Position numbers and translations under genes: made by a program. Below the pieces are notes generated by a model. It saw only the letters and a list, made by a program, of their open reading frames with translations, was not told the DNA's origin and ran no database searches. From the NCBI RefSeq assembly GCF_001425835.1, contig NZ_LMDP01000003.1:504001-568000 (forward strand): a DNA stretch of 64,000 nt. Reading direction: 5' to 3'. Source of the stretch: Afipia sp. Root123D2 (lineage in GTDB: Bacteria > Pseudomonadota > Alphaproteobacteria > Rhizobiales > Xanthobacteraceae). Below are positions 1,942 through 47,983 of the stretch, in pieces. Positions within the stretch are counted from its first letter, which is position 1, and each line of letters starts with the position of its first letter.

Positions 1942-1996
1942 GCGCGGGCTGACCTGCGCTGAACCATTTGCATTGAGCCACTATAAAGGACCTCTC

Positions 1997-2782: not shown

Positions 2783-2798
2783 ATACGCGGCCTAATCG

Positions 2799-2828
2799 AA
2801 ATGGCCGGGCGCTCGCCCGGCCATTTTC
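2799..2828 (+). terminator. Rho-independent terminator after the acyl-CoA dehydrogenase operon
   Basis: An inverted repeat AATGGCCGGGC / GCCCGGCCATT with a GCTC loop is followed by a T-rich run. It lies 17 bp past the stop codon of the crotonase gene and would end the + strand transcript before the convergent acyl-CoA synthetase gene. Confidence 0.7.
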
Positions 2829-2843
2829 ATTTGGCCGCTCGAT

Positions 2844-2947
2844 CCTCATGGTGAGGAGGCGCGTCAGCGCCGTCTCGAACCATGAGGCCAGAAGTCTTCC
2901 CTCATCCTTCGAGACGCAACGCTACGCGCTGCTCCTCAGGATGAGGG
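2844..2947. repeat. Two imperfect intergenic palindromes of rhizobial type
   Basis: Two neighbouring elements form hairpins: CCTCATGG (2844-2851) pairs with CCATGAGG (2880-2887), and CCCTCATCCT (2899-2908) pairs with AGGATGAGGG (2938-2947). The words CCTTCGAGACGC and GCTCCTCAGGATGAG match, from memory, a repeat spread through Bradyrhizobium and Rhodopseudomonas intergenic regions. It lies between two convergent operons. No coding potential is seen. Confidence 0.6.
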
Positions 2948-2961
2948 GAACCTATCCTCAA

Positions 2962-5091
2962 TCAGTACCTGTCCTGCGTCGCGCCAACCGGCTTGTCGCG
3001 GCCGACCACCAGCGCATCGACAATGGTGACGCCCTCGCCCACCGGATGGACAAGGACCGGGTTGACCTCGATTTCCGACACGTCATCCGCGCGCTGCGCG
3101 GCCAGTTGCGAGACCTGCGCAATCAGCTTCGCAAGCGCCGTCCGGTCGGATTTCGCGGATCCACGGAATGAATCGAGCAAAGGCGCGGCCTTGAGATCGT
3201 CCAGTATCATCGAGGCCTCCTCCGCGCTCACCGGAGCGGGACGATAGACCACATCCTTGAACAGCTCGGTGGTGACGCCGCCGAGACCCGCCATCACCAT
3301 CGGCCCGAAGGTCGGATCGTTGATGGTGCCGACGATCATTTCGACGCCCTTCTTCGCCAGCGGCCCGACCAGAACGCCCTGGATGTTGGCCGACGGGCTG
3401 AAGCGCCGGGCACTCTCGACCAGTTGCGTGTAGGCGGCCGACGCCTCGTCCGCATTCGCGATGTTGACGCGCACGCCGCCCGCTTCGCTCTTGTGCGGAA
3501 TGTCGCGCGACTGGATTTTCATCACCAGCGGGAAACCGACCTTGGCCACCGCAGCATCAAGATTTGCTTTCTGCGTCACCAGGATTTCTTCGGGCAGTGT
3601 GAAGCCGGCTGTGCGCAGCAGTTCCTTGCTTTCATGCTCGGACAAATTGCCGACGATCTTCTCCGACGGCGCGGCCGCCGAAACGACGGCCGGGGCAGTG
3701 AGCTTGAACCGGGCGCGATCCACCATGCGTCGAATCGCGCGGCCGAACGGCGCCAGCCCCGGAAATGCGACAATCCCGGATTCCGCCAGCGCTGCGCGCG
3801 CGAACTGCGACGGCAGCGTGTAGGTGTAGAACAGGATCGGCTTCTTCTGCGCGTCGATCAGCGGTTTGATCTCCGGTTGCTTCACCGAGATGCGGGTTTC
3901 GCTGGAGAACGAACTCACCACGACGATGACGTCGATCTCGTCCGCCTTCTCCAGCAGCTCGATGGTCTTCTGCAAGCCGCCGCTATGCACCGCCTGCGCG
4001 GTGATGTCGACCGGATTCCGCGGCGAGCCGTAGGACGGAATCAGTTTGCGGATCTCGGCCTGAATCGGCGCCGACAGTTCGGGCACGTTGAGGCCTTCGG
4101 CGGCCAGCGTATCCGCCATCCACGCACCGGCCCCGCCGGACACGGTGACGACGGCGACACGGTCGCCCTTCGGCGGCGGCGCACTGGTCAGCGCAGCGGC
4201 AATGGTGACAGCTTCATCGAGATCGTTCGAAACGATGAAGCCGTATTTGGCGAACACCGCATCATAGGCGGCGCTCCAGCCCGCCATGCTGGCGGTGTGC
4301 GACGCGGCCGCGCGCTCGCCGGCGCCGGAACGGCCGACCTTCGAGACAATCACCGGCTTGCCCGCCTCCGCCGCGCGCTGGGCAGCCGCGAGAAACTTGT
4401 CGCGGTCGCGGATGCCCTCGATGAAAAGCAGGATCACATCGGTGGTCTTGTCCTGCACCATGTAATCGAGGAATTCACCCGCGCCGAGATCGGATTCGTT
4501 GCCGGTGGAGACGACATAGCTGACGGCGACACCCATCGCCTTGGCACGATTGTAGATCGCAAAGCCGATGCCGCCGCTCTGCGCGACGATACCGACACGG
4601 CGCGACGTCGCCAGCAGCCGCGGTGCATCGGGCTTGACATCGACGGTCGGACTGAAAGTCGCCGCGACGCGCTTCGGTTCGTTGTAGAAACCTTCAGCGT
4701 TGGGGCCGGAAATCCGCATGCCGGTTCGTTTCGCCAGCGCGGCGATTTCCGCCTGCATGTTGGCGCTGTCGCCACCCTCCTCGGCAAAGCCTGACGAGAT
4801 GATGATCGCGTTCTTGACGCCGACCTCGGCGCACTCCTTGAGCGCGGGCAGCACCACCTTGGCCGGAATGATGACGATGGCGAGGTCGATCGGCTGGCCG
4901 ATGCTCGACACAGACGGATAACACTTCAGGCCATCGATATCGCCGTAGGATGGATTGACCGGGAAGATCTGGCCGGCAAAGCCGTTTTTGCGCAGGAACG
5001 CCAGCAACAGACCGGGAATTTTCAGCGGGTCGCGCGACGCACCGATGACAGCCACGCTGGAGGGCGAGAAGAACGAGTCGAGAGGATGCAT
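2962..5091 (-). CDS. NDP-forming acyl-CoA synthetase (acetate-CoA ligase type, fused subunits)
   Basis: The 709-residue protein has the order of fused NDP-forming acyl-CoA synthetases. An N-terminal CoA-binding Rossmann domain begins FFSPSSVAVIGASRDP. The succinyl-CoA-ligase-like domains follow, with the conserved SHTASMAG segment holding the histidine that is phosphorylated in this family. The C-terminal part, from about residue 470, is an ATP-grasp domain (VMKIQSRDIPHKSEAGGV). The family makes acyl-CoA from a free acid, CoA and ATP, or runs in reverse. It is the last gene of a - strand set behind a VOC gene (10-bp gap), so it probably activates the acid that the neighbouring crotonases and dehydrogenases process. 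The substrate is unknown. Confidence 0.9.
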   Translation of the reverse strand: MHPLDSFFSPSSVAVIGASRDPLKIPGLLLAFLRKNGFAGQIFPVNPSYGDIDGLKCYPSVSSIGQPIDLAIVIIPAKVVLPALKECAEVGVKNAIIISSGFAEEGGDSANMQAEIAALAKRTGMRISGPNAEGFYNEPKRVAATFSPTVDVKPDAPRLLATSRRVGIVAQSGGIGFAIYNRAKAMGVAVSYVVSTGNESDLGAGEFLDYMVQDKTTDVILLFIEGIRDRDKFLAAAQRAAEAGKPVIVSKVGRSGAGERAAASHTASMAGWSAAYDAVFAKYGFIVSNDLDEAVTIAAALTSAPPPKGDRVAVVTVSGGAGAWMADTLAAEGLNVPELSAPIQAEIRKLIPSYGSPRNPVDITAQAVHSGGLQKTIELLEKADEIDVIVVVSSFSSETRISVKQPEIKPLIDAQKKPILFYTYTLPSQFARAALAESGIVAFPGLAPFGRAIRRMVDRARFKLTAPAVVSAAAPSEKIVGNLSEHESKELLRTAGFTLPEEILVTQKANLDAAVAKVGFPLVMKIQSRDIPHKSEAGGVRVNIANADEASAAYTQLVESARRFSPSANIQGVLVGPLAKKGVEMIVGTINDPTFGPMVMAGLGGVTTELFKDVVYRPAPVSAEEASMILDDLKAAPLLDSFRGSAKSDRTALAKLIAQVSQLAAQRADDVSEIEVNPVLVHPVGEGVTIVDALVVGRDKPVGATQDRY

Positions 5092-34809: not shown

Positions 34810-34838
34810 TTGCGAGTGATGCTGCTTAAGGATAATAA
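34810..34838 (+). promoter_or_regulatory. Sigma70-type promoter of the L,D-transpeptidase gene
   Basis: TTGCGA (34810-34815) and TAATAA (34833-34838) are 17 bp apart. The predicted start near 34845 leaves about 73 nt before GTG 34918. The -35 box coincides with an in-frame TTG at 34810, which argues against a start codon there. Confidence 0.65.
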
Positions 34839-34917
34839 TTGTTCAACCACACTTAGAAATGTCCGCGGTATTTTTGGGGTTGCTTGGCGTGTGGGGGAGC
34901 CTGTTTTGATTGAGCGA

Positions 34918-36408
34918 GTGTCTGTGCGTGGGCTTCTGATTTCGGCTGCTCTGACGGCCAGCCTTGTGCTGTCCGGATGCAACGGCGACAGCCTTTCTCC
35001 CAGCGCGAAAGCCAGCAAGCCGATCCCCGAAAAGCTCCTCAAGGAGATCGAAGCCAAGAACATGGACAAGGGTTCGCCCATGCTTGTCCGTCTGTTCAAG
35101 CAGGAGGCTGAACTCGAGGTCTGGAAGCAGGACCGCAGCGGCCGCTTCGCGCTTCTGAAAACCTATCCGATCTGCCGCTGGTCCGGCGATCTCGGCCCTA
35201 AGATTCGCGAAGGCGACCGCCAGGCGCCCGAAGGCTTCTATTCGATCACGCCGGGACAGATGAATCCGGCATCCTCCTACTATCTGTCGTTCAACATGGG
35301 TTACCCCAACGCCTACGACAAAGCGTGGGGACGCACCGGCTCGCAGCTCATGGTGCATGGCGATTGTTCGTCGCGCGGCTGCTACGCGATGACGGACGAA
35401 CAGATTTCGGAAATCTATTCGCTCGGCCGCGAATCCTTCTTCGGCGGCCAGACCGCGTTCCAGGTGCAGGCCTATCCGTTCCGGATGACCGCGCAGAACA
35501 TGGCCAAATACCGAAGCAATCCGAACATGCCGTTCTGGCGCATGCTCAAGGAAGGCAATGACCATTTCGAGGTCTCGAAACTCGAGCCCAAGATCGACGT
35601 CTGCGAGAAGCGCTATGTCTTCGATGCCGAGCAGCCCGCCAATGCGTCGCGGCCGCTAACGTTCAACGCAGCCGGCAAGTGCCCAGTGTATGAGGTCAAT
35701 CCGGAAATCGCGCAGGCGGTTGCCGAGAAGGAACAACGCGACAACGCGAAGGTCGCCGAACTGATCTCGCACGGCGTGTCGGCGCCGAAATCGCGGGCCG
35801 GCATCGACGGCGGGATGCATCCGGTGTTCGCCAACAAGCTGCCCGATGCGCAGTCGATCGCGATTGCCGACGTCAATGACTACGCAGTGTCGGCCAACGG
35901 CGCGGCGCCAGGTACGATACCCTCGCACGTCAATCCTCCGCGCCTGCCCGAGGGTCAGGTCTCGGCATTTACGTTCGCATCGACCCCTGCCGCCGGTTCG
36001 GCCGATACGCCGCCGCCTCCGCCCGCAGCGAAGACCGAAACCGCCGACACCGGCAGCAGCGCATCCGGCGGGTTCTTCAGCCGCCTCGCCCAGAAGGTGG
36101 GCCTGCGCAAGGACGCGGAACCGAAGACCGAACCGGCCAAACCCACGACGACCGCTCGTGTGATCGGCCACAAACGCAAGGCCGAGCCGAAGTCTTCATC
36201 GGCTGCCAAATCGACCAGTGTGGCCCGTGCTGCCGAGCCGAAAGCCCCCGCCGCTCGCGTGATCTCGTTGGAGAAGCAGCAGGCGGAAGCCAGATCGACA
36301 TTCCCCGATCCGGTGATCTCCCGTCCGACGCCGCCGCAAACGATCAGTGGTGCGCGGTCGACGGTGCAGGCGAATTCATTCGACCAGCGCTGGTCGTCCT
36401 TCCGGTAA
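34918..36408 (+). CDS. L,D-transpeptidase (YkuD-type) lipoprotein
   Basis: From GTG 34918 the protein has 496 residues and begins with a lipoprotein signal (SVRGLLISAALTASLVLSGC). The catalytic region MVHGDCSSRGCYAM gives His147 and nucleophile Cys155, the YkuD pattern HG...S.GC. Such enzymes make 3-3 peptidoglycan cross-links or attach proteins to the wall. The last about 200 residues are Ala/Pro/Lys-rich (GFFSRLAQKVGLRKD, then KPTTTARVIGHKRKAEP) and look disordered and cationic. The GTG is chosen because the promoter lies at 34810-34838 and the signal sequence begins there. Confidence 0.85.
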   Translation: MSVRGLLISAALTASLVLSGCNGDSLSPSAKASKPIPEKLLKEIEAKNMDKGSPMLVRLFKQEAELEVWKQDRSGRFALLKTYPICRWSGDLGPKIREGDRQAPEGFYSITPGQMNPASSYYLSFNMGYPNAYDKAWGRTGSQLMVHGDCSSRGCYAMTDEQISEIYSLGRESFFGGQTAFQVQAYPFRMTAQNMAKYRSNPNMPFWRMLKEGNDHFEVSKLEPKIDVCEKRYVFDAEQPANASRPLTFNAAGKCPVYEVNPEIAQAVAEKEQRDNAKVAELISHGVSAPKSRAGIDGGMHPVFANKLPDAQSIAIADVNDYAVSANGAAPGTIPSHVNPPRLPEGQVSAFTFASTPAAGSADTPPPPPAAKTETADTGSSASGGFFSRLAQKVGLRKDAEPKTEPAKPTTTARVIGHKRKAEPKSSSAAKSTSVARAAEPKAPAARVISLEKQQAEARSTFPDPVISRPTPPQTISGARSTVQANSFDQRWSSFR

Positions 36409-36452
36409 GACAGCGCTCAGGCTAATAGCCCGTGCACTGCCCCGGCACCCTC

Positions 36453-36482
36453 TTGACATCAACACGGTGACTTCGCGTTACT
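36453..36482 (+). promoter_or_regulatory. Likely promoter of the MBOAT-SGNH gene pair
   Basis: A consensus -35 TTGACA (36453-36458) is followed after about 18 bp by GTTACT, a moderate -10. A start near 36489 leaves a short leader of about 20 nt before ATG 36509. Confidence 0.5.
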
Positions 36483-36508
36483 GATCTCTCGTGGCCTGAC
36501 GAGAGACC

Positions 36509-37876
36509 ATGCTTTTTCAGTCGCAGATTTTTATTCTGGTGTTTTTGCCGGCCACGCTCGCGCTTTACTATCTGTGCGCGGACAGGCTGGTTATCCGGCA
36601 AGGGGTTCTGGTCGGCGCGTCGCTGGTTTTCTACGGCTGGTGGGATGCGCGGTTTATCCCTCTGCTGGTGGGCCAGATCACGCTGACATGGCTGCTCGCC
36701 AAGGCTCACGAGCGCACCGGCAAGCGCTGGCTCCTGATCGGGGGCGTCGTTCTCAACCTGCTCTCGATCGGCACGTTCAAATATCTCGACTTCCTGATCG
36801 GCTCGGCCGAAACGATGACAGGCATTACGCTGCCTCGCGCGCACATCGTGCTGCCGATCGGCATCAGCTTCTTTTCGTTCCAGCTGATTTCCTATCTGGT
36901 CGACCGGATGCGCAACGATGCGCCGATCTATCCGTATCGTCCGTTCGCACTGTTCGTGTTGCTGTTCCCGCACCTGATCGCCGGGCCGATCGTGAGGCAC
37001 AACGAACTGGTCCCGCAGTTTGCGGAAAATCCCTTGCGCGACGGCTTGTGGCATCGCATCGGCGCGGGGCTGATCGTTTTCACCGTCGGGCTGGTGAAAA
37101 AACTCCTGCTGGCCGATCCGCTCGCGAAAGTCGCCGATCCGTTGTTCGCCAAGGCCACCTCGCACGCCATCAGCTTCGGCGAAGCCGGGACAGCCGCACT
37201 GGCATTTTCCTTTCAGCTCTTTCTCGATTTCTCGGCCTACACCGAAATGGCGATCGGGACCGCGCTACTCTTCGGCCTGATCCTGCCGGAAAATTTCAAC
37301 AGACCCTATCTCGCCGCCAATCTGAGGGATTTCTGGCAACGCTGGCACATCTCGCTGTCGCGTTTCATCCGCGACTATCTCTACATTCCGCTCGGCGGCA
37401 GCCGTCACGGCACTCCGCGCTATGTCGTCGCGACGCTTGCCAGCATGGGTATCTGCGGCCTGTGGCACGGCGCGGGATGGACTTATGTGGTGTGGGGTCT
37501 CTGGCACGGTGTCGGCCTGATCGTCTGCCGCGGCTGGCAGCAACTGGGCCGGCCGCTGCCCGCCGTGGCGGGATGGGTCATCACCATGGTGTTCGTCATT
37601 GTCGGGTGGGTGATTTTCCGCGCGGCGACATTCGGCGAAGCGCACGGCATGCTCATCGCGCTGACGGGCGGCAACGGCTTCCATGGCGCGCTTGCAAAAC
37701 CGCAGTTGCTTGCATCCGCGGCAGCAGCGTCCGTCCTGATTCCGTCCGCTCACACGATCATTCACAACCTGAAACCGGATCCCGTCATGGCTACGGTGTG
37801 CGCAGTGCTGGCTCTATTCGGGTGTCTCGAGGCCGGGACCGGTGCGGCGGTGAATTTCATTTATTTCCAGTTCTGA
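36509..37876 (+). CDS. MBOAT family O-acyltransferase (AlgI-like)
   Basis: The 455-residue protein has about ten membrane segments and starts MLFQSQIFILVFLPATLALYY, as AlgI-type proteins do. Conserved MBOAT parts are SFFSFQLISYLVD, LDFSAYTEMAIG, NFNRPYLAANLRDFWQRWHISLS and, around the catalytic histidine, GICGLWHGAGWTYVVWG. Such proteins pass acetyl groups across the cytoplasmic membrane for O-acetylation of an exported polysaccharide or peptidoglycan. The next gene starts 2 bp after this stop and encodes a membrane-anchored SGNH-like protein, the usual periplasmic partner type. The acceptor polymer is not identifiable. Confidence 0.92.
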   Translation: MLFQSQIFILVFLPATLALYYLCADRLVIRQGVLVGASLVFYGWWDARFIPLLVGQITLTWLLAKAHERTGKRWLLIGGVVLNLLSIGTFKYLDFLIGSAETMTGITLPRAHIVLPIGISFFSFQLISYLVDRMRNDAPIYPYRPFALFVLLFPHLIAGPIVRHNELVPQFAENPLRDGLWHRIGAGLIVFTVGLVKKLLLADPLAKVADPLFAKATSHAISFGEAGTAALAFSFQLFLDFSAYTEMAIGTALLFGLILPENFNRPYLAANLRDFWQRWHISLSRFIRDYLYIPLGGSRHGTPRYVVATLASMGICGLWHGAGWTYVVWGLWHGVGLIVCRGWQQLGRPLPAVAGWVITMVFVIVGWVIFRAATFGEAHGMLIALTGGNGFHGALAKPQLLASAAAASVLIPSAHTIIHNLKPDPVMATVCAVLALFGCLEAGTGAAVNFIYFQF

Positions 37877-37878
37877 AC

Positions 37879-39000
37879 ATGAACATCGACCTTCTCAAGC
37901 GTGCACGTTCGATCCTTAGCGGAGACAACCGCCAGGTCTCATGGGCGCGCTTTTCGCTGACGTTCCTGACCGTTTTTGGCGGCGGCGCCATCGCGCTTTA
38001 CGCTTTCGTGCTCTTGATGGATCCGTATCACGACGTTCCGTTCTCGCTCCCCATCGAGCGGCCGCTGATGAGCGTCAATCAGCGCTACATGTATCCTCAG
38101 GTCGCCCGCAGCAAACGCTTCGACTCATTTATCGTCGGCACATCGACATCGCGGTTGATCGATCCGCAGATTTTAAGTGCGGGACTCGCCTCACGCTTTG
38201 TGAATCTCGCGATGGATTCAGCAACGGCGTGGGAGCAAACGCAAATTGCGCAATACTTCATACGCAAATCCGGCCCGCCCAAGGTCATGATCGTCGGGGT
38301 CGATGCCGTGTGGTGCGACAAGCGCGCGGACGAGGATCGCATCACCTTTCGTGGTTTCCCCGACTTTCTCTATGACGACAACCGGTGGAACGATCTGCAG
38401 TATCTGATGAACTCTCGCGCCATCGAAATTGCCGGCCGCCTTGCTGGCTATCACCTCGGCCTCCTGCGCGAGCGAAGCCGCTACGACGGCTATCAGGTTT
38501 TCGTGCCGCCGGAGGCGAGCTACGATCTGGCGAGAGCGCAAACCCATATCTGGGGCGGACCGCCGCGCACCCTGCCTGATCCAGCGACAACCAAACCGTA
38601 CACGTTGTCCGAAAAGCAGCGCGCTGCCGCCAGGTTTCCCGCCCTGATGTGGCTCGAAGAGCTGTTCGCCGCCGCGCCGTCCGCCACCAAAGTGGTTGCC
38701 TTCATGCCGGTCCATGCCGCCGGACAGCCCCTTGCCGGCAGCATGACTGCCGCCGTCGAAGCCATGTGCAAGGATGCGATCGTCGGGATCGCGCGGCGTC
38801 ACGATGCCACCGTCATCGACTGGCGGATTCCATCCGTGCTGACCACAAACGACAGCAACTACTGGGATCCTCTTCACTACCGCGTGCCGGTGGCGCAGCG
38901 GATTTCGCAGGAACTCGCCGAGGCCGTCATCGATGGCCGTCCTTCGACGGACGGCACCTACAAAATTCTCCAGCGCCAACAAAAAACCGCCGGTCATTGA
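37879..39000 (+). CDS. Membrane-anchored SGNH-hydrolase-like protein (putative acetyltransferase partner)
   Basis: The 373-residue protein has one N-terminal membrane segment (FSLTFLTVFGGGAIALYAFVLL) and then a periplasmic domain. FIVGTSTSRLID contains a G-T-S motif in the place of the SGNH nucleophile loop. Near the C-terminus NYWDPLHYR gives the D..H pair expected of SGNH hydrolases, as in AlgX/AlgJ or PatB-type proteins. It starts 2 bp after the MBOAT gene, so the pair probably works as an O-acetylation machine. I could not match it closely to a named family. Its stop codon lies inside a bidirectional terminator. Confidence 0.75.
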   Translation: MNIDLLKRARSILSGDNRQVSWARFSLTFLTVFGGGAIALYAFVLLMDPYHDVPFSLPIERPLMSVNQRYMYPQVARSKRFDSFIVGTSTSRLIDPQILSAGLASRFVNLAMDSATAWEQTQIAQYFIRKSGPPKVMIVGVDAVWCDKRADEDRITFRGFPDFLYDDNRWNDLQYLMNSRAIEIAGRLAGYHLGLLRERSRYDGYQVFVPPEASYDLARAQTHIWGGPPRTLPDPATTKPYTLSEKQRAAARFPALMWLEELFAAAPSATKVVAFMPVHAAGQPLAGSMTAAVEAMCKDAIVGIARRHDATVIDWRIPSVLTTNDSNYWDPLHYRVPVAQRISQELAEAVIDGRPSTDGTYKILQRQQKTAGH

Positions 39001-39010
39001 CCGGCGGTTT
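38981..39010. terminator. Rho-independent terminator shared by the SGNH gene and secA
   Basis: A 13-bp inverted repeat AAACCGCCGGTCA / TGACCGGCGGTTT (38984-39010) is preceded by an A-run, which gives T6 on the - strand. It lies 22 bp past the secA stop and includes the stop codon of the + strand gene, so it mainly terminates secA and possibly both. Confidence 0.85.
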
Positions 39011-39032
39011 CGATGTTCCGATGCTGATGAGG

Positions 39033-41870
39033 TCAGGCGTAGCGGCCGTGACAGTGCTTGAACTTCTTGCCTGAGCCGCACGGGCAATCCTCGTTGCGGC
39101 CGACCTTGCCCCAGGTCGCGGGGTTGGAGGGATCGCGATCCGCGGCCGACACCGGAACCAGCGACGCGCCGGCGAAGGCCATCTCGTCCTCGCCGGTGTT
39201 CGGGTTCAGCTTGTGCGCTTCCATCTGCGGCAATTCAGGCTGCTCGTCCTCCGGCGGCACGATTTCGACGCGAACAAGCTGGGCGGTGACTGCCTCGCGC
39301 AGATGCGCGATCAGTCCCTCGAACAGGGCGAAAGCCTCGGACTTGTATTCCTGCAACGGATCGCGCTGGCCGTAGCCGCGCAGGCCGATCACCTGCCGCA
39401 AATGATCGAGCATGATCAGATGTTCGCGCCACAGGTGGTCGAGGGTCTGGAGCAGGATCGACTTCTCGACGTAGCGCATGACGTCGGGGCCCCACTGCGC
39501 CGACTTCGCCGCCATGTGCTCATCGACACGCTGCTCGATACGGGCGAGCAATTCCTCGTCGGCAATGCCCTCTTCCTTGGCCCATTCATCGACCGGCAGG
39601 TCGAGATCGAGCACGCGCTTGAGTTCTTCCTTCAGGCCGGCCGTGTCCCATTGCTCGGCGTAGACATGTTCCGGGATGTGCTTGGTGACCAGATCGTCGA
39701 CCAGCGCGTGACGCATGTCGGCGACAGTTTCGGCGACGTTCTGATCCCGCATCAGGTCGATACGCTGATCGAAGATCACCTTGCGCTGGTCGTTCTGCAC
39801 GTCGTCAAACTTGAGCAAATTCTTGCGGATGTCGAAGTTGCGTGCCTCGACCTTCTGCTGCGCCTTCTCCAGCGCCTTGTTGATCCACGGATGGATGATC
39901 GCCTCGCCTTCCTTGAGGCCGAGGCGCTGCAGCATGGTGTCGAGCCGGTCGGACCCGAAAATGCGCATCAGGTCGTCTTCCAGCGACAGGAAGAACTTGG
40001 TGCGGCCGGGATCGCCCTGACGGCCGGCGCGGCCGCGCAGCTGGTTGTCGATGCGGCGGGATTCATGGCGCTCGGAACCCATGATGTAGAGACCGCCGGG
40101 CTTGGTGACGGTCTTCGCAGGTTTGCTGCCCTTCGCGGGCTCGATCTCGATGGTCTCCTCGGCCTTCAGCACCGCTTCGCGGAAGCGCACGATATCGGCC
40201 TTGATCCCGTCGGTGATGCGCTGCTTCTCGGCCTCGTCCTCGATGCCGGCGGTGGCCGCGGCCGCGCGCATTTCGAGCGAGCCGCCGAGTTTGATGTCGG
40301 TGCCGCGACCGGCCATGTTGGTCGCGATCGTGATCGCGCCCGGCACGCCGGCCTCGGCGACGATGTAGGCTTCCTGCTCGTGGAAGCGCGCGTTCAGCAC
40401 CGCGAACAGCTTCGACGGTTTGCCGGAGCGCGCCGCGTCATACAGCTTTTCCATCGACTTCGGATTGGCGAAATCGATCTGCTTGTAACCGTGCTTCTTC
40501 AGATACTCGGCCAGCAGTTCCGATTTCTCGATCGACGCGGTGCCGACCAGAACCGGCTGCATCCTGCCATTGGCGCGTTCGATCTCGCCGAGGATCGCGG
40601 CGTATTTTTCCTCGGCCGTGCGATAGACCTCGTCGTCCTCGTCGAGACGCGCCACCGGCACGTTGGTCGGCACCTCGATGACTTCGAGCTTGTAGATGTC
40701 GAACAATTCGTCCGCTTCGGTCGCCGCCGTACCGGTCATGCCGGCGAGCTTGTCGTACATGCGGAAATAGTTCTGGAAGGTGATCGAGGCCAGCGTCTGG
40801 TTTTCCGGCTGCACCGTCTGGTGCTCCTTGGCCTCCAGCGCCTGATGCAGGCCTTCCGAATAGCGCCGGCCCGGCATCATGCGGCCGGAGAATTCATCGA
40901 TGATGATGACCTCGTCGTCGCGCACGATGTAGTCCTTGTCGCGCGTAAACAGCGAATGGGCACGCAGCGCCTGATTGATGTGATGCACGACGGAGACGTT
41001 CTCGACGTCGTAGAGCGAGTCGCCCTTGAGCTGGCCGGCGTCGCGCAGCAGCGTTTCGATCTTCTCCATGCCGGCTTCGGTGAGCGTTACCGTGCGCTGC
41101 TTCTCGTCGACCTCGAAGTCCGTGACCTTCTCGAGGTTCGGCATGAAGGTGTCGATGGTGTTGTAGAACTCCGAACGGTCGTCGAGCGGACCGGAGATGA
41201 TCAACGGCGTCCGCGCTTCGTCGATCAGGATCGAGTCGACTTCGTCGACGATGGCGAAGGAGTGACCGCGCTGGACCATGTCCTCGAGGCGGTACTTCAT
41301 GTTGTCGCGCAGATAATCGAAACCGTATTCGTTATTGGTGCCGTAAGTGATGTCGCAGCCGTACGCCGCCTGGCGCTCGGCATCGTCGAGACCGTGAACA
41401 ATGACGCCCGTGGTCATACCGAGGAAGGAATAGATCTCGCCCATCCAGCCGGCGTCGCGCCGGGCGAGGTAGTCGTTGACGGTGACGACATGCACGCCCT
41501 TGCCGGCGAGCGCATTGAGATACACCGCGAGGGTCGCGACCAGCGTCTTGCCTTCGCCGGTTTTCATCTCGGCGATGTCGCCTTCGTGCAGCACCATGCC
41601 GCCGATCAGCTGCACATCGAAATGGCGCTGGCCGAGCGTGCGCTTGGCGGCCTCGCGCACGGTCGCGAAAGCCGGGACGAGAAGATCGTCGAGAGTCTTG
41701 CCGTCAGCGATCTGCTGGCGGAATTCGGCGGTACGCGCCTTCAGCGCCTCATCCGACAGCGCGGCGATTTCCGGCTCGAGGGCGTTGATGGCATTGACGC
41801 GCGATTGATAACCTTTGACCCGTCGGTCGTTGGCGGAACCGAAAAGCTTGCGGGCGAGCGCGCCGATCAT
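39033..41870 (-). CDS. secA: Preprotein translocase ATPase SecA
   Basis: From ATG 41870 ([22 protein letters not shown]) the protein has 945 residues. It contains Walker A MKTGEGKT (102-109), [15 protein letters not shown] (motif II), the helicase segment [10 protein letters not shown] and the C-terminal zinc motif [14 protein letters not shown] that binds SecB and lipids. SecA drives protein export through SecYEG. An upstream in-frame extension is rejected because the promoter lies at 42067-42095 and homologous SecA begins at this methionine. The gene stands alone with its own promoter and terminator. Confidence 0.98.
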
Positions 41871-42066
41871 CGGAAATTCCTGTCTTGCAGTTGGTCTTGC
41901 AGTTGGGCCTTGCAGCCGCGGAATCGACCCATCCGGAAAAACCCCATCCGCAGCAAAAATCCTCGCGGAGACAGTCCCTTGGATGGGTGAAGGAAACGAG
42001 GCCCGAGGTTCAAGGCAAGGGCGCGGCAACAAGCGCGTCCCGGCCACCAAAGCCCGGCTGCGGAGA

Positions 42067-42095
42067 CAGATATGGGCGGCTCCAGGCCTTGTCAA
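42067..42095 (-). promoter_or_regulatory. Sigma70-type promoter of secA
   Basis: On the - strand TTGACA (42095-42090) and TATCTG (42072-42067) are separated by exactly 17 bp. Transcription would start near 42060, leaving an unusually long leader of about 190 nt before the secA ATG. Confidence 0.72.
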
Positions 42096-42211
42096 CGCGC
42101 TAACCTGACAGCGATTTCATGATTTTGACTGGTTTTCGCGTTGCCATCGGCAGGCGATTGGGCGAGTGTCCCGCGACCTCGCACCAGCGATTTCACAGAA
42201 AAGGATTATCC

Positions 42212-43135
42212 ATGATCGCCTCTCCGACCCGCACGACCGCTGCCGTGCGTTTTAGCCTGTTCTCGACCGTCGCGACCGGGTGCCTCGCGATCGTCCTGAT
42301 GGCGGCCCAGCCCGTTTTCGCGCAGGACGCGAATCCGGTTGTCGCCAAGGTTAACGGCGCTGAGATCCGGCAGAGCGACGTGACCATGGCCGAGACCGAA
42401 CTCGCCCCCAGCCTCCAGCAAATGGATCCGGCGACGCGGCACGAAAACATCATCGCCTTTCTGATCGACATGAAAATCGTCTCGAAGGCGGCCGAAGACA
42501 AGAAAATCGGCGACAAGCCGGAGTTCAAGCAGAAGCTGGCGTTCACTCGCAACCGGCTGCTGATGGACGATCTCCTCGAACAGCAGGGCAAGGCCGGCGT
42601 CACCGACGAGGCGATGAAGAAGGTCTATGACGACGCCGCCAAGCAGATTTCCGGCCAGGAAGAAGTCCACGCCCGTCACATTCTCGTGCCGACCGAGGAA
42701 GAAGCCAAGAAAATCGAAGAGCAGTTGAAGAAGGGCGCCGATTTCGCCGAACTGGCCAAGAAGGAGTCGAAGGACCCCGGCGCCTCCGATGGCGGCGATC
42801 TCGGCTTCTTCACCAAGGACCAGATGGTGCCGGAATTCTCCGCTGCCGCGTTCGCTCTGGAACCGGGCAAGATCTCGGCGCCGGTGAAGTCGCAGTTCGG
42901 CTGGCACGTTATCAAGGTTGAGGAAAAGCGCCCGCGCAAGCCGCCGGAGTTCGTGCAGGTCAAGCCGCAGATCGAGAGCTTTGTCACCCGCAAGGCACAG
43001 GCCGATTATGTCGCCAAGCTGCGGGCCGAGGCCAAGATCGAGCGCCTCGACAAGAAGGACGAGCCGGCCAAGACCGATGCGAAGCCGGACGCCAAGCCGG
43101 ATACCAAGGCCGCTCCGGCTCCCGCGAAGAAGTAA
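42212..43135 (+). CDS. Exported peptidylprolyl isomerase, parvulin/PpiC-SurA type
   Basis: From ATG 42212 (AAGGA ribosome-binding site) the protein has 307 residues. A signal peptide ends PVFA-QDANP. A SurA-like N-terminal helical region (VVAKVNGAEIRQSDV) is followed by one parvulin domain: VHARHILVPTEEEAKKI, GGDLGFFTKDQMVPEF and SQFGWHVIKVEEKRP. The C-terminal 25 residues are a Lys/Asp/Ala/Pro repeat tail (KTDAKPDAKPDTKAAP). It probably helps fold outer-membrane proteins in the periplasm, fitting its position divergent from secA. The downstream gap contains dispersed palindromes. Confidence 0.92.
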   Translation: MIASPTRTTAAVRFSLFSTVATGCLAIVLMAAQPVFAQDANPVVAKVNGAEIRQSDVTMAETELAPSLQQMDPATRHENIIAFLIDMKIVSKAAEDKKIGDKPEFKQKLAFTRNRLLMDDLLEQQGKAGVTDEAMKKVYDDAAKQISGQEEVHARHILVPTEEEAKKIEEQLKKGADFAELAKKESKDPGASDGGDLGFFTKDQMVPEFSAAAFALEPGKISAPVKSQFGWHVIKVEEKRPRKPPEFVQVKPQIESFVTRKAQADYVAKLRAEAKIERLDKKDEPAKTDAKPDAKPDTKAAPAPAKK

Positions 43136-43165
43136 ATCGACTTCGCCAGCAGAACTGATTAGTTT

Positions 43166-43264
43166 GACGTCATGCCCGGCCTTGTGCCGGGCATCCACGT
43201 CTTAAGGCCTTCATCTCTCCGAAAGTAAAAGGCGTGGATGGCCGGGACGAGCCCGGCCATGACG
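43166..43264. repeat. Two convergent palindromic repeats between the parvulin gene and argJ
   Basis: Element one, 43166-43203, contains ATGCCCGGCCTTGTGCCGGGCAT, a hairpin of ATGCCCGGC and GCCGGGCAT. Element two, 43229-43264, contains GGCCGGGACGAGCCCGGCC with CGTGGATG in front, so the outer words GGCATCCACG and CGTGGATGGC face each other. This is a known type of dispersed repeat in this bacterial group. Confidence 0.75.
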
Positions 43265-43295
43265 ACTTTTGATTGACCGAGACAAGGCGCTATTC

Positions 43296-44537
43296 ATGTC
43301 CACTGCCGTTTCCCCCCTCGCCCCGACCAACGTCCCCGACCTGCCGCCGATCGACGGCGTGCGGCTGGCAACGGCTGCCGCCGGCATCCGCTACAAGGGC
43401 CGCACCGACGTGCTGCTGGCGCTGTTCGACAAGGGCACCACGGTCGCGGGCGTCTTCACTAAATCGAAATGCCCGAGCGCCGCGGTGGACTGGTGCCGCG
43501 ACAAGCTCAAGGGTGGTGAAGCGCGCGCGCTGGTGGTGAATTCCGGCAACGCCAACGCCTTCACCGGCAAGACCGGCAAGCAGGCGACGACGCTGACAGC
43601 GACGATCGCCGCCAAGGCCGCTGCCACCACGCCAAACAAGATTTTTCTCGCCTCGACCGGCGTGATCGGCGAACCGCTCGACGCCACCAAATTCAACGGT
43701 GTGCTCGATGATCTCGCCGATGCGGCCACGCCCGGCCACTGGGACGCCGCCGCACGCGCCATCATGACCACCGACACCTTTCCGAAGGTCGCGACCGCCA
43801 CGGTGAAACTCGGCAAGACCAAGGTGACGATCAACGGCATGGCCAAGGGCGCCGGAATGATCGCGCCGGACATGGCGACGATGCTCGCTTTCATTTTCAC
43901 CGACGCGCCGCTGTCTGCCGCTGCATTACAGGGGTTGCTCAAGAGCGGCGTCGAGGACACGTTCAACGCGGTGACCATCGACGGCGACACCTCGACCTCG
44001 GATACGCTGCTGGCCTTCGCGACCGGCACTGCGGCCGCAAAGGGCGCGCCGAAAATCAGCCGCTCTGGCGATCCCCGGCTGAAGGCCTTCAAGAAGGCCT
44101 TCGACGCCGTGCTCGCCGATCTCGCCGAACAGGTCGCGCGTGATGGCGAAGGCGCACGCAAGCTGGTCGAGATCATCGTCGACGGCGCAACCTCGAAAGC
44201 CTCGGCGCGCAGAATCGCGATGTCGATCGCCAACTCGCCGCTGGTGAAGACCGCGATCGCGGGCGAGGACGCCAATTGGGGCCGCGTCGTCATGGCGGTC
44301 GGCAAGGCGGGCGAACCCGCGAACCGCGACAAACTTGCGATCTCCTTCAACGGCGTCCGCGTCGCCCACAAGGGCGCGCGCGATCCGTCCTACGACGAGG
44401 CGGAAGTCTCGGCGCTGATGAAGCAGCCCAAGATCCAGATCAAGGTCGGCCTCGGCCTTGGCAAGGGCCGCGACCGCGTGCTGACCTGCGACCTCACCAA
44501 GGAATACGTCGCGATCAACGGCGACTACCGCTCGTGA
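43296..44537 (+). CDS. argJ: Bifunctional ornithine acetyltransferase/N-acetylglutamate synthase
   Basis: From ATG 43296 ([21 protein letters not shown]) the protein has 413 residues, the normal ArgJ length. [16 protein letters not shown] holds the autocleavage site, with nucleophile Thr195 in MATML, so the precursor splits into alpha and beta chains. GNANAFTG and GEDANWGR are further family motifs. It moves the acetyl group from N-acetylornithine to glutamate and may also use acetyl-CoA, in arginine synthesis. An upstream TTG (43269) is less likely. The stop codon overlaps the next start by 1 base (TGATG). Confidence 0.96.
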
Positions 44538-44938
44538 TGAAACTCACCCTCGTCGTCGCCTGCGCGCTGATCGATGCGGACAACCGCGTCCTGATCGCGC
44601 AGCGCCCCCAGGGCAAGACGCTCGCGGGCCTGTGGGAATTTCCCGGCGGCAAGCTGGAGCCCGGTGAGCGCCCGGAACCGGCGCTGATCCGCGAACTGCA
44701 AGAAGAACTCGGCATCATCACGCAGGAAGCGTGCCTTGCACCGCTGACGTTCGCCAGCCACGCCTATGACGACTTCCATCTGCTGATGCCGCTCTACATC
44801 TGCCGCCGCTGGCAGGGCGATGTCGCTGCGCGCGAAGGCCAGAAGCTCGCCTGGGTCCGCGCCAACAAGCTGCGCGATTATCCGATGCCACCGGCGGACA
44901 TTCCGCTGATCGCGCACCTGACGGATTTGCTGCTGTAG
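44537..44938 (+). CDS. mutT: 8-oxo-dGTP diphosphatase, MutT type
   Basis: The 133-residue protein has a full Nudix box, G(x5)E(x7)REUxEExGU, read as GGKLEPGERPEP followed by ALIRELQEELGI, and the N-terminal strand LTLVVACALIDADNRVLIAQRP. MutT removes oxidised dGTP before it is built into DNA. The ATG overlaps the argJ stop by one base, so translation is probably coupled. GTG 44534 is an alternative start. The link between argJ and mutT appears to be one of position rather than pathway. Confidence 0.9.
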   Translation: MKLTLVVACALIDADNRVLIAQRPQGKTLAGLWEFPGGKLEPGERPEPALIRELQEELGIITQEACLAPLTFASHAYDDFHLLMPLYICRRWQGDVAAREGQKLAWVRANKLRDYPMPPADIPLIAHLTDLLL

Positions 44939-44974
44939 GCTTTCTGGAAACGAAAGCAGTCATCACACTTGAGT

Positions 44975-45003
44975 TGTCATGGCCGGGCCTGACCCGGGCA
45001 TGA
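44975..45003. repeat. Intergenic palindrome GTCATGGCCGGG...CCCGGGCATGAC
   Basis: The hairpin GTCATGGCCGGG / CCCGGGCATGAC lies between mutT and the convergent methyltransferase gene. It belongs to the same family as the elements at 43166-43264 and may also act as a terminator of both strands, although the T-run is weak. Confidence 0.65.
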
Positions 45004-45020
45004 CAAAAGAAACGTCGGCG

Positions 45021-45872
45021 CTATTCCGCCCTTCGCCCCTTCACCGCTTCTTCCAAACTCATCTTCGCAGAGCCAGGCTTGAGCGGCTTCTGTTGGCTCT
45101 CATGCGGCGCCCAGCCCGACATCCAGACGATATCGAAGGTGGCGCGGATGCGACCATCGGCATCCGCGAAGCGCTCGCTGTAGATCGCCGCCATGCGCAG
45201 CAACGTCGCACGCCGCAGCGGCACGCGGCGGCGCTCGACCAGCACGTTGGTCGCACCCATCCGCCGCAAATCCTGCATCAGCGCGAACGCGTTGTCGTAA
45301 CGCACCACGATCCGGTCGACATCGGTCACCGGCAACGCGAACCCGGCGCGCTGCAACAGCGCTCCGGCGTCACGCAAATCGGCGAACGGCGCGACGCGCG
45401 GAGAAATTCCACCCTCGACCTCGGTTTCGGCAGCCGCGAACGCCTGCCGCAATTCTGTCAACGTATCGCCACCGGTCATTGCGGCCAGAAAAAGCCCGTC
45501 CGGTTTCAGGGCGCGGCGAATTTGCGCCAGCACGCCGGGCAGGTCATTGACAGTGTGCAGAGCCAGCGCCGACACGACAAGATCGACCGAGCTGGCCGCC
45601 AGCGGCAGCGCGTCATCGTCGCCGTCCGGTAACGCGATGTTCTTCAGCTCGGTTTGCCCGGCCAGCGCACGGCGCACCTGATCGCCGGGCGTCCCGAGAT
45701 CGGCACCGTGAGAGAATTGCCGCGTCACGGCTTGCAGGCGCTCTGCAAGGTCGGCTGAAACGCGCTCGAGCAGGAACGGCTCGGCGCCGGCGCGACGCGC
45801 GCGATCCTGCCGCGCGCGTAACAGAGCGCGGTCGAACAGGCGCGGCGTGGTGTCGTTCGAAGGGGTAGCCAT
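45021..45872 (-). CDS. SAM-dependent methyltransferase, BioC/NDUFAF5-like
   Basis: The protein has 283 residues from ATG 45872 (MATPSNDTTPRLFDRALLRARQDR). The N-terminal phrase PRLFDRALLR is characteristic of the NDUFAF5-like group, and the methyltransferase core has VDLVVSALALHTVNDLPGVLAQIRRALKPDGLFLAAMTGG. The usual Gly-rich motif I is degenerate (GADLGTPGDQV). Mitochondrial NDUFAF5 hydroxylates a complex I subunit, so this protein need not be a methylase. It is divergent from comF. Exact function uncertain. Confidence 0.82.
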   Translation of the reverse strand: MATPSNDTTPRLFDRALLRARQDRARRAGAEPFLLERVSADLAERLQAVTRQFSHGADLGTPGDQVRRALAGQTELKNIALPDGDDDALPLAASSVDLVVSALALHTVNDLPGVLAQIRRALKPDGLFLAAMTGGDTLTELRQAFAAAETEVEGGISPRVAPFADLRDAGALLQRAGFALPVTDVDRIVVRYDNAFALMQDLRRMGATNVLVERRRVPLRRATLLRMAAIYSERFADADGRIRATFDIVWMSGWAPHESQQKPLKPGSAKMSLEEAVKGRRAE

Positions 45873-45958
45873 AGCCGTTGTTACGCCGACCTCCGCCGCT
45901 CTGGCAATCCGCCATGCAGCCGCTTGAGCGGCAAGATCGTCAGCGCTAGCCTTAACGG

Positions 45959-46789
45959 ATGGACACCGGGGCCGGGGCGTCATCGCGTTCATCGGGGAGC
46001 AGGCTTGCATGGAAAGGCAGGCTTGGTGCCGCTTGGGCGGCTTGCCACTCCGGTTTGACGGCCACAGTGCGGACTGCACTCGACATCGCTTTGCCGACGC
46101 TGCGCGTCTCGTGCCGTGAGCCGGTGTCCGGTGAAGGCGTCTGCGCGGCATGCTGGTCGCAACTGTCATTCATCGCCCCACCCTATTGTGCGCGGCTCGG
46201 CATCCCCTTCGTTTACGATCCCGGACCCGGACTGCTGTCGATGGAAGCCATCGCCAGTCCACCGGCCTACCAGCGGGCCCGCGCCGCAGTGCGTTATGAC
46301 GACGTCGCCCGTGCACTGGTCCATGCACTGAAATATCAGGACCGCACCGATCTCGCTCCGACCATGGGGCGCTGGATGGCGCGGGCCGGTCACGAGCTGT
46401 TGACCGGTGCCGACGCCCTGATTCCGGTTCCGTTGCACTGGAAACGAAGCTGGAGCCGCCGTTACAACCAGTCCGGAGCGCTGGCCCGTGCCATTGCACT
46501 CAACTCCGGCGTTCCGGTGTGGACCGATGCGTTGCGGCGCATCCGCCAGACCCAACAACAGATCGGATTGTCCCGGTCCGAGCGCGCGCGCAACGTGCAG
46601 GGCGCATTCAAGGTCGCCACGGAAAAAAAGGCAACCGTCAAGGGCCGCCGACTCGTCCTGATCGACGATGTCCTGACCTCCGGTGCGACATCCGATACCT
46701 GCGCCCGCGCACTGCTGCGGGCCGGAGCTGCATCGGTGGATGTGCTGGTCTTTGCGCGGGTTGTGGACCCCTTCAAAACTCCCATATAA
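45959..46789 (+). CDS. comF: ComF family phosphoribosyltransferase-like protein
   Basis: The 276-residue protein has an N-terminal cysteine-rich part (SCREPVSGEGVCAACW, then PPYCARLGIPF) that resembles the ComF zinc-ribbon. The C-terminal phosphoribosyltransferase domain contains ALIPVPLHWKRSWSRRYNQ and the PRPP loop LVLIDDVLTSGAT. ComF proteins take part in DNA uptake in competent bacteria and occur widely in non-competent ones, where their role is unclear. It is divergent from the methyltransferase gene and precedes grxC by 31 bp. Confidence 0.9.
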   Translation: MDTGAGASSRSSGSRLAWKGRLGAAWAACHSGLTATVRTALDIALPTLRVSCREPVSGEGVCAACWSQLSFIAPPYCARLGIPFVYDPGPGLLSMEAIASPPAYQRARAAVRYDDVARALVHALKYQDRTDLAPTMGRWMARAGHELLTGADALIPVPLHWKRSWSRRYNQSGALARAIALNSGVPVWTDALRRIRQTQQQIGLSRSERARNVQGAFKVATEKKATVKGRRLVLIDDVLTSGATSDTCARALLRAGAASVDVLVFARVVDPFKTPI

Positions 46790-46820
46790 TCGGCAACGAA
46801 ACGATTTTTCCGGGATTCAC

Positions 46821-47096
46821 ATGACCGCCGTCATCGAAATCTACACGCGGCCCGGCTGCGGCTATTGCAGCGCGGCCAAGTCGCTCCTTGCACGCAAGAA
46901 CGCGGCCTTCACCGAGTTCGACGTCAGCACCGATCCATCGCTGCGCGGCAAGATGATCGAGCGCGCCAACGGCGGCGCTACCTTCCCGCAGATTTTCATC
47001 GACGGCGCGCATGTCGGCGGCTGCGACGACCTCTATGCGCTCGACCGCGCCGGCAAACTCGACGCCCTGCTCGCAGGTGAAAAGGAAACCACATGA
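46821..47096 (+). CDS. grxC: Glutaredoxin 3
   Basis: The 91-residue protein starts MTAVIEIYTRPGCGYCSAAK, with the dithiol active site C13-G-Y-C16. TFPQIFIDGAHVGGCDDLYAL is the conserved glutathione-binding TVP-type loop and following strand. It reduces disulfides and mixed glutathione disulfides. Its stop overlaps the start of the amidase gene by 4 bp (ATGA), making a tight cluster grxC-amidase-DUF1178. Confidence 0.95.
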   Translation: MTAVIEIYTRPGCGYCSAAKSLLARKNAAFTEFDVSTDPSLRGKMIERANGGATFPQIFIDGAHVGGCDDLYALDRAGKLDALLAGEKETT

Positions 47097-47983
47097 GCGA
47101 GATCAACAGCGGCGCACCGTTCACCGCAGCGATGATCCAGATGCGCAGCACCCTGCTGCCGCAGGATTCGCTTGCGCAGGCGACGCAACTGATCCGCGAA
47201 GCCAGGGACAAGGGTGCCGACTACATCCAGACGCCCGAAGTCAGCAACATGATGCAGGTGAACCGCAAGGGCCTGTTCGAACTGCTGGCGTCGGAGGACG
47301 ACGACGCATCGCTCAAGGCCTATCGTGACCTTGCGAGCGAACTGAAGGTTCATCTGCACGTTGGATCGCTTGCGCTGCGGGCAACGCCTGAGCGCGCCGC
47401 CAACCGTTCGTTCCTGATCGGACCGGCAGGCGAGATCGTGGCTCGCTACGACAAGATCCACATGTTCGACATCGATCTCGGCAACGGCGAGAGCTACCAC
47501 GAATCCGCGAACTATCAGCCCGGCGACACCGCCGAGATCGCCGACCTGCCGTGGGGCCGCCTCGGCCTGACCATCTGTTACGACGTGCGCTTCCCCGCGC
47601 TTTATCGCGCGCTGGCGGAGGCCGGTGCATCATTTCTCTCCGTACCGTCCGCCTTTACGCGCAAGACCGGCGAAGCACACTGGCACACGCTGCTGCGCGC
47701 CCGCGCCATCGAGAACGGCTGCTACGTCTTCGCCGCGGCGCAGGGCGGCACGCACGAAAACAAGCGCGAGACTTACGGCCATTCGCTGATCGTCGATCCG
47801 TGGGGCACCGTGATTGCCGACTCGGGCAACGATGAACCCGGCGTCGTGCTGGCCAGGATCGATCCGGCACAGGTGGCGAAAGTCCGCAAGAACATTCCGT
47901 CGTTGCAGCATGGCCGGCGCTTCAGCGTCAGCGACCCGAAGGCGGGGCCGGACCACCTGCATCTGGTGCGGGGATCGGCATGA
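47093..47983 (+). CDS. Carbon-nitrogen hydrolase (Nit1/Nit2-like amidase)
   Basis: The 296-residue protein carries the Glu-Lys-Cys triad of the nitrilase superfamily: Glu49 (TPEV), Lys121 (YDKIHMFDI) and Cys162 (LTICYDVRFPAL). It resembles Nit proteins, which hydrolyse deaminated glutathione or omega-amides as metabolite repair. Neighbouring glutaredoxin (4-bp overlap) fits a link to glutathione, which is an inference. The next gene also overlaps by 4 bp. Confidence 0.9.
   Translation: MSEINSGAPFTAAMIQMRSTLLPQDSLAQATQLIREARDKGADYIQTPEVSNMMQVNRKGLFELLASEDDDASLKAYRDLASELKVHLHVGSLALRATPERAANRSFLIGPAGEIVARYDKIHMFDIDLGNGESYHESANYQPGDTAEIADLPWGRLGLTICYDVRFPALYRALAEAGASFLSVPSAFTRKTGEAHWHTLLRARAIENGCYVFAAAQGGTHENKRETYGHSLIVDPWGTVIADSGNDEPGVVLARIDPAQVAKVRKNIPSLQHGRRFSVSDPKAGPDHLHLVRGSA

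Follow-up and report, generated by a model that had tools for sequence, protein, structure and literature searches.

A 64,000-nucleotide stretch of the genome of Afipia sp. Root123D2 (contig NZ_LMDP01000003.1, positions 504,001 to 568,000 of the forward strand; hereafter the window) encodes an O-acyltransferase of the MBOAT family and, directly behind it, a membrane-anchored protein of an unnamed SGNH family, referred to here as SGNH-A. The two proteins very probably act as a PatA/PatB-like acyl relay in the inner membrane, in which an acyl group would pass from acyl-CoA to Tyr452 of the MBOAT, from there to Ser89 of SGNH-A and finally to an acceptor in the cell envelope. Pairing of an MBOAT with an SGNH protein is already known from PatA/PatB and AlgI/J/X, and the system described here is an unnamed, partner-swapping variant rather than a categorically new one. 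Among the titles listed in our literature searches we found none on this pair in Alphaproteobacteria, in a body of literature the scope of which mostly excluded subscription journals and preprints. A first-pass annotation of the DNA had pointed to the two genes as an orphan O-acetylation pair lying 2 bp apart, and this spacing is borne out by the open reading frame (ORF) calls, in which the MBOAT stop codon ends at 37876 and the SGNH-A start codon (ATG) lies at 37879.

The upstream protein matched the Pfam MBOAT family (PF03062) with 108.2 bits against a curated cut-off of 27. Its closest relative among sequences of solved structures was DltB (E = 3.4e-32, PDB sequence search), and a Foldseek search with its predicted model (predicted local distance difference test score, pLDDT, 89.4) returned DltB (6bug, E = 3.6e-13) at the top, followed by HHAT and other MBOATs. 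It is nevertheless set apart from DltB proper, as the NCBIfam DltB equivalog (TIGR04091) matched at 175.1 bits, under its 375-bit cut-off. Two histidines, H280 and H320, are invariant in all 24 rows of our MBOAT alignment (A4), and H320, within the motif GLWHG, is presumably the catalytic histidine, as in other MBOATs. The protein ends in the hexapeptide FIYFQF, which is likewise invariant in A4 (24/24) and was present in all 30 MBOATs fetched from genomes with an unlinked SGNH-A; residues 452–455 have a pLDDT below 50 in the model. The hexapeptide has the form FXYXXF. The same form was found in 21 of 21 printed MBOATs from other clades, and the motif thus marks a kind of enzyme, not a clade or a substrate. 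In PatA, the Tyr of a C-terminal FXYXXF peptide becomes acetylated, and PatB transfers the acetyl group from the PatA peptide to a peptidoglycan mimic (accessible sections of PMC12148441). The same Afipia genome also holds a second MBOAT-SGNH pair that looks degenerate (L002, G000:C1:191495-194776, positions 1655-3232): its MBOAT is shortened by an in-frame stop, yet ends in FIYMQF, and the SGNH-like reading that follows is split over two ORFs with weak DltD and GDSL matches.

SGNH-A (373 amino acids) had no match up to E = 1 in Pfam, NCBIfam or PHROGs, in agreement with the earlier remark that it fits no named family. Against PDB sequences, phmmer gave two chance-level matches (E = 1 and 1.4) and a profile search none. 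When the window protein and 52 relatives were scanned singly, the commonest Pfam match was Lipase_GDSL_2, weak and found in 15 of these 53 rows (best E = 0.0011), and ALGX appeared once, weakly (E = 0.058); NCBIfam gave scattered weak matches to the relatives. A search for the ALGX domain in the Afipia genome returned no match, and the control of that search was silent too. The AlphaFold2 model of SGNH-A, built on a 53-sequence alignment (pLDDT 94.8; predicted template modelling score 0.90), consists of a single long N-terminal helix, presumably the membrane anchor, followed by an alpha/beta globular domain. DltD was the best match of solved structure in Foldseek (E = 3.4e-4), although the DltD Pfam family (PF04914) had no match to the window protein up to E = 1 and was not listed for any of the 53 rows, and the next matches were mostly GDSL/SGNH esterases. 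VIA-align gave Z scores of 11.4-13.1 for the 50 matches listed, which were mostly SGNH/GDSL enzymes with a few designed scaffolds and included PatB (Z 11.5-11.6; 11.6 for 8tlb). AlgX, AlgJ and PatB1 were not among the fold-search matches listed, an absence that is uninformative. On the predicted model, SGNH-A has the SGNH alpha/beta fold.

The candidate catalytic residues are conserved throughout the family. In an alignment of the window SGNH-A with 80 homologues (81 sequences), G87 and S89 of block I were identical throughout, in the 25 sequences linked to an MBOAT and the 56 unlinked ones alike, and D330 and H333 of block V in all 25 linked and 55 of the 56 unlinked ones, the sole miss being a gap (block definitions from the part of PMC9487903 available). 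The G-T-S motif and D..H pair singled out in the first-pass annotation are therefore present and not due to chance, and its proposal of a membrane-anchored SGNH partner agrees with the predicted fold and the conservation of the Ser of GTSTS and the Asp and His of DPLHY. In the model, Ser89 directly follows the first strand, and Asp330-x-x-His333 lies directly ahead of the helix spanning residues 336-352. Five further residues, D142, W145, C146, C297 and D314, were identical in all 81 sequences. The cysteines C146 and C297 have counterparts in a second family, SGNH-B (see below), where C142 and C275 are invariant in the 12 rows of alignment A5; the conserved pair is possibly a disulfide.

A scan of GTDB contigs gave 195 stretches encoding SGNH-A relatives, of which 80 were kept; by their titles nearly all are from Alphaproteobacteria, with one metagenome-assembled genome labelled Gammaproteobacteria. 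An MBOAT adjoins SGNH-A in 24 of these 80 loci, lying before it in 23 and after it in one (L065). These counts include one sequence twice (L004 and L045), and frame labels would read the order as 22 before and 2 after, the open frame of L047 starting far upstream. The remaining 56 loci had no MBOAT in the stretch, many of them with common housekeeping surroundings. The earlier annotation had flagged conserved placement of the second gene beside unrelated partners as counting against a functional pair, and unlinked placement does occur. However, the presumed partner is not lost, because a related MBOAT was found elsewhere in all 40 of the genomes with unlinked loci that were searched; in 38 of them a single unbroken match covered residues 1 or 2 through 455, and in 25 there was no other MBOAT match. 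Searches for carriage on mobile replicons were negative: among 70 pattern matches in viral_contigs none encodes an SGNH-A relative, and plasmids gave no match.

Two surveys, which share at least the Afipia genome itself, extended this pattern. Among 397 genomes of the order, strong SGNH-A matches (at least 233 bits) occurred in 23, and the same 23 carried an MBOAT of at least 557 bits; the next-best MBOAT (514 bits) was in a genome without SGNH-A. Among 240 genomes of the class, SGNH-A of at least 292 bits was found in 12, the same 12 that had an MBOAT of at least 577 bits, the next MBOAT scoring 496. The remaining 374 and 228 genomes, respectively, gave no strong SGNH-A match. Weak matches outside these counts were G326, G435, G448, G494 and G076 in the order survey (G435 and G448 scoring higher with the SGNH-B profile than with that of SGNH-A), and G535 (70 bits, beside an MBOAT of 490 bits) and G610 (30 bits) in the class survey. 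Of the 23 genomes in the order survey, 15 have the genes side by side (SGNH-A first in G250). In the other eight, seven from one family (f42) and one from another (f2), the genes are unlinked and found on separate contigs, except in G381, where 43 kb lies between them. In the class survey they adjoin in 11 of 12 genomes and occupy two contigs in G581. SGNH-A and one kind of MBOAT are therefore co-inherited in the genomes surveyed, even where they are unlinked. One contig (G589, C259:13-3206) opens with a partial MBOAT followed by two SGNH-A copies in tandem.

SGNH-A has a sister family, SGNH-B, mostly with GNSH in block I. The two align over 326 columns in hhalign with probability 100 and 26% identity, and are split by a fully supported branch (100/100) in a tree of 69 SGNH sequences, which held 16 of the 56 unlinked sequences and 21 of 22 SGNH-B neighbours (the short L133 was dropped) and left out L005-L007. 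Both families are found beside MBOATs of this kind. At 30 MBOAT loci fetched from genomes with unlinked SGNH-A, SGNH-B adjoins the MBOAT in 22 (in L133 as a shorter frame of 215 amino acids). The other eight had no SGNH-B within the roughly 1.5 kb fetched to either side, one of them (G496) having it 8.5 kb from the MBOAT, as judged by identical contig coordinates. In thirteen genomes the single MBOAT match has SGNH-B as its neighbour and SGNH-A is located elsewhere, and in Alsobacter soli (L061) SGNH-B and SGNH-A lie head to tail in a 21-kb stretch that contains no MBOAT. In two family-mates a carbamoyltransferase gene directly follows MBOAT and SGNH-B (L182, 6656-8389; L183, 10522-12243), identified by a Pfam scan of the L183 protein, to which the L182 protein is 69% identical.

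Several points weigh against an acyl relay built on this MBOAT and SGNH-A. The survey score cut was set after the gap in scores had been seen, the MBOAT profile came from SGNH-A-linked MBOATs (A4, which does not contain the eight unlinked ones), the best 4 to 8 first-look candidates were scored per genome, and genomes belonging to the same family do not count as independent observations. In SGNH-A the position of the usual block III Asn is Asp142 in 81 of 81 sequences, and that of block II is Asp113 in the window protein and Asn in most relatives (both mapped by eye), so that the oxyanion hole may be atypical; PatB likewise lacks the block II Gly, according to the accessible part of PMC12148441. 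No conserved substrate gene emerged near the pair when the 4,897 ORFs of the 80 loci were clustered and the 40 largest families examined. Within these, the commonest other family in the 24 MBOAT-linked loci was an ABC-type ATPase (4/24; MBOAT, SGNH-A and apparent opposite-strand shadows excluded), and the remaining large families belong to unlinked loci. By eye, no glycan gene recurred in a gene list of 20 further stretches either, a list that covered L190-L193 in part and was produced by rough gene calling, which overlooked some SGNH-A genes. Finally, three family-mates (G032, G042 and G069) have MBOATs 67-70% identical to that of the window whose neighbour is SGNH-B, with no SGNH-A found.

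These three MBOATs belong, in a tree of 83 MBOATs (L053, which is partial, and L055, taken as a duplicate of L005, left out), to a seven-row clade with the window MBOAT (support 100/99), in which four members are paired with SGNH-A (two of them identical) and three with SGNH-B. Their SGNH partners group with other B proteins in the SGNH tree. Furthermore, the same two flanking genes (79-80% and 60-61% identity), which we take to be a citramalate synthase and a LOG-family gene, surround MBOAT and SGNH-B in G069 and MBOAT and SGNH-A in L045 (the same locus as L185) and L046. One chromosomal site can thus hold either of two SGNH families, which would be explained by replacement or by loss of one of two ancestral partners. 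We tentatively suggest, as a possibility rather less likely than not, that one MBOAT serves two exchangeable SGNH heads, with A and B docking on the same acyl-Tyr shuttle either alone, swapping at one site, or together, as in Bosea and Methylobacterium, where A is unlinked. A single acyl supply might then feed two acceptors or be handed on in series, as has been suggested for AlgJ/AlgX, with the substrate encoded outside any polymer operon.

The relay that we favor for the window pair is modeled on PatA/PatB of Neisseria and Campylobacter, which likewise combine an MBOAT ending in FXYXXF with an SGNH protein anchored by one helix. The MBOAT would take an acyl group from cytoplasmic acyl-CoA, and its invariant His would help to place it on Tyr452 of its own FIYFQF peptide. 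The acylated peptide would be presented at the periplasmic face to SGNH-A, where Ser89, together with His333 and Asp330, could accept the group and transfer it to a hydroxyl on some molecule of the envelope. The chemistry and the direction of flow are taken by analogy from the known pairs; we infer likewise the topology and the action of SGNH-A as a transferase rather than an esterase. Acetyl is the likeliest acyl group, and O-acetylation a reasonable guess on the same analogy. SGNH-A resembles PatB in its order of residues, Ser first and DxxH last, and in fold (Z 11.6 to 8tlb). It differs in having no sequence match to PatB in the PDB set and an Asp at the expected block III Asn (by eye), and PatA/PatB differ from the present system, where a second SGNH family swaps or coexists. 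AlgI/AlgJ/AlgX likewise has an MBOAT with more than one SGNH protein in one system, and the block I of AlgJ, GTSYS, is close to GTSTS of SGNH-A; in contrast, AlgJ and AlgX (PF16822) show a circular permutation that places DxH ahead of the Ser, whereas Ser89 precedes Asp330-x-x-His333 here (AlgJ/AlgX features from the portion of PMC4148444 at hand). DltB and DltD are the best solved-structure relatives of the MBOAT and SGNH-A in Foldseek, but the hexapeptide is on the MBOAT itself and not on a microprotein such as DltX. Cellulose acetylation by WssH/WssI/WssF also uses an MBOAT with two SGNH proteins; that system is related to AlgI/J/X and part of a cellulose operon (as described in the available text of PMC10302187), unlike the window pair, which has no polymer gene among the neighbors scanned.

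The chromosomal site itself (Table 1) gave little guidance on the acceptor. The upstream gene, described in the first-pass annotation as an L,D-transpeptidase lipoprotein, does encode a YkuD domain over the cut-off (28.7 against 23.4) and is better described as YafK/DpaA-like (NF040599, E = 2.5e-63; 213 bits, below the 365-bit cut-off). Ten neighbors within about 10 kb (aroB, aroK, xerD, accA, secA, argJ, a CorC-like protein, a peptidyl-prolyl isomerase, a glutaredoxin and an amidase) were scanned and no glycan-synthesis gene was found, so the absence of polysaccharide genes nearby holds for those ten. SGNH-A had no match in any of 28 genus-mates, and loci were fetched for 24 of them. In 21, accA, yafK and secA are adjacent with no MBOAT or SGNH-A match between them; for the remaining three (L226; L227, near a contig end; L234) the fetched stretch did not show secA. 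Genus-mates mostly have fewer than 400 bases between yafK and secA (960 in L228), and in seven of the eight empty sites printed this gap contains a small hairpin with runs of A and T. At a threshold of E <= 1e-15, none of the 80 homologue loci contained a yafK match. As yafK is native to the site, a wall-gene neighbor is no clue to the substrate, and the suggestion of a cell-wall substrate drawn from the upstream gene falls away. Given the empty sites in genus-mates, the hairpin, and a G+C content of the two genes (60.8 and 60.3%) slightly under that of six measured neighbors (61.4-66.0%), it is most likely that the pair arrived as a two-gene cassette placed ahead of a shared terminator. It has no visible mobile parts, as none of the repeats listed in 36300-39150 resembles integration ends at the borders. 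Loss of the pair in all genus-mates is a less simple alternative. In the genome G330, which has the genes unlinked, the run from 39033 to 47983 of the window (secA, peptidyl-prolyl isomerase, argJ, glutaredoxin and amidase) seems, by eye, at least partly kept (L200); the unlinked SGNH-A stands at its far end beside an amidase-like gene, with three yafK matches about 7-9 kb from SGNH-A.

Table 1. Position of the MBOAT/SGNH-A pair, its predicted functional elements and its context in the window.
Feature	Position	Strand	Basis or remark
MBOAT O-acyltransferase, 455 amino acids	36509..37876	+	predicted loading of acyl from acyl-CoA onto its own C-terminal Tyr
Hexapeptide FIYFQF, MBOAT residues 450-455	37856..37873	+	predicted acyl-Tyr452 shuttle
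SGNH-A, 373 amino acids, predicted membrane-anchored SGNH-like acyltransferase, unnamed family	37879..39000	+	fold model and matches
N-terminal helix, SGNH-A residues 22-47, presumed membrane anchor	37942..38019	+	model helix and hydrophobic sequence
Block I G-T-S, residues 87-89, predicted nucleophile Ser89	38137..38145	+	conservation of G87 and S89
Block V D-P-L-H, residues 330-333, predicted catalytic Asp330 and His333	38866..38877	+	conservation, 80/81 each
YafK/DpaA-like YkuD-domain protein (context only)	34810..36408	+	next to secA in most genus-mate loci
secA (context only)	39033..42095	-	scan of neighbors
Hairpin like that of the yafK-secA gap of genus-mates	38984..39010		perfect 13-bp arms; overlaps last SGNH-A codons

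Two other explanations of SGNH-A itself have to be considered. It could be a de-acylating esterase that removes groups added by another SGNH protein, SGNH-B for example, with the MBOAT a mere operon neighbor. The predominance of esterases and thioesterases among its fold matches, its possibly atypical oxyanion positions and the frequent presence of SGNH-B beside the MBOAT in genomes of the Bosea/Methylobacterium type (22 of 30 loci), with SGNH-A elsewhere, are consistent with this. However, such a role appears improbable, given that SGNH-A adjoins the MBOAT in 15 of the 23 order-survey genomes, that the SGNH-B profile finds only SGNH-A itself in the window genome, and that a system made up of an MBOAT and an esterase would lack a transferase. 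Alternatively, SGNH-A might use some other acyl carrier, an AT3 protein for example, its adjacency to the MBOAT being historical. The 56 loci without an MBOAT in the stretch would fit this; but the related MBOAT kept in 40 of 40 searched genomes, and the lack of a strong SGNH-A match in any other survey genome, make it very unlikely, more so than the esterase.

For the PatA/PatB-like relay, then, the choice of acceptor is divided between a glycan and peptidoglycan, as the gene surroundings do not clearly favor one over the other. An exopolysaccharide, O-antigen or periplasmic glucan whose synthesis is encoded elsewhere in the genome is a serious candidate, though somewhat short of probable. 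Known MBOAT-SGNH pairs also modify alginate and cellulose (accessible text of PMC12148441), and presence is patchy, with 10 of 121 relatives giving a match (SGNH-B and one weak match included). A carbamoyltransferase gene also adjoins two MBOAT and SGNH-B loci, and this enzyme family also serves glycan decoration. Set against this, no gene of glycan synthesis turned up repeatedly next to the pair in the 40 largest families or in the gene list, which was seen in part. Peptidoglycan, the acceptor of PatA/PatB, appears rather unlikely, even though the architecture is the same, PatB is among the fold matches, and the common housekeeping surroundings of unlinked SGNH-A would be expected of a core polymer more than of a variable capsule. 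The wall-gene neighbor is native to the site and does not accompany the homologues in the 80 loci, and sequence cannot distinguish acceptors.

Envelope O-acylation pairs are usually recognized by the polymer operon around them, and the pair described here has no polymer operon in sight. As SGNH-A is not recognized by Pfam or NCBIfam, its members are likely annotated as hypothetical proteins. What is new here is an unnamed SGNH family, its co-inheritance with an MBOAT even when unlinked, and the finding that a single site can exchange one SGNH partner for another. These natural swaps, together with genomes that combine one MBOAT with two SGNH proteins, offer a direct way to ask which SGNH surface reads the acyl-Tyr and which picks the acceptor. 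Should a core polymer of the envelope turn out to be the acceptor, this would be a modification so far unrecognized in Alphaproteobacteria.

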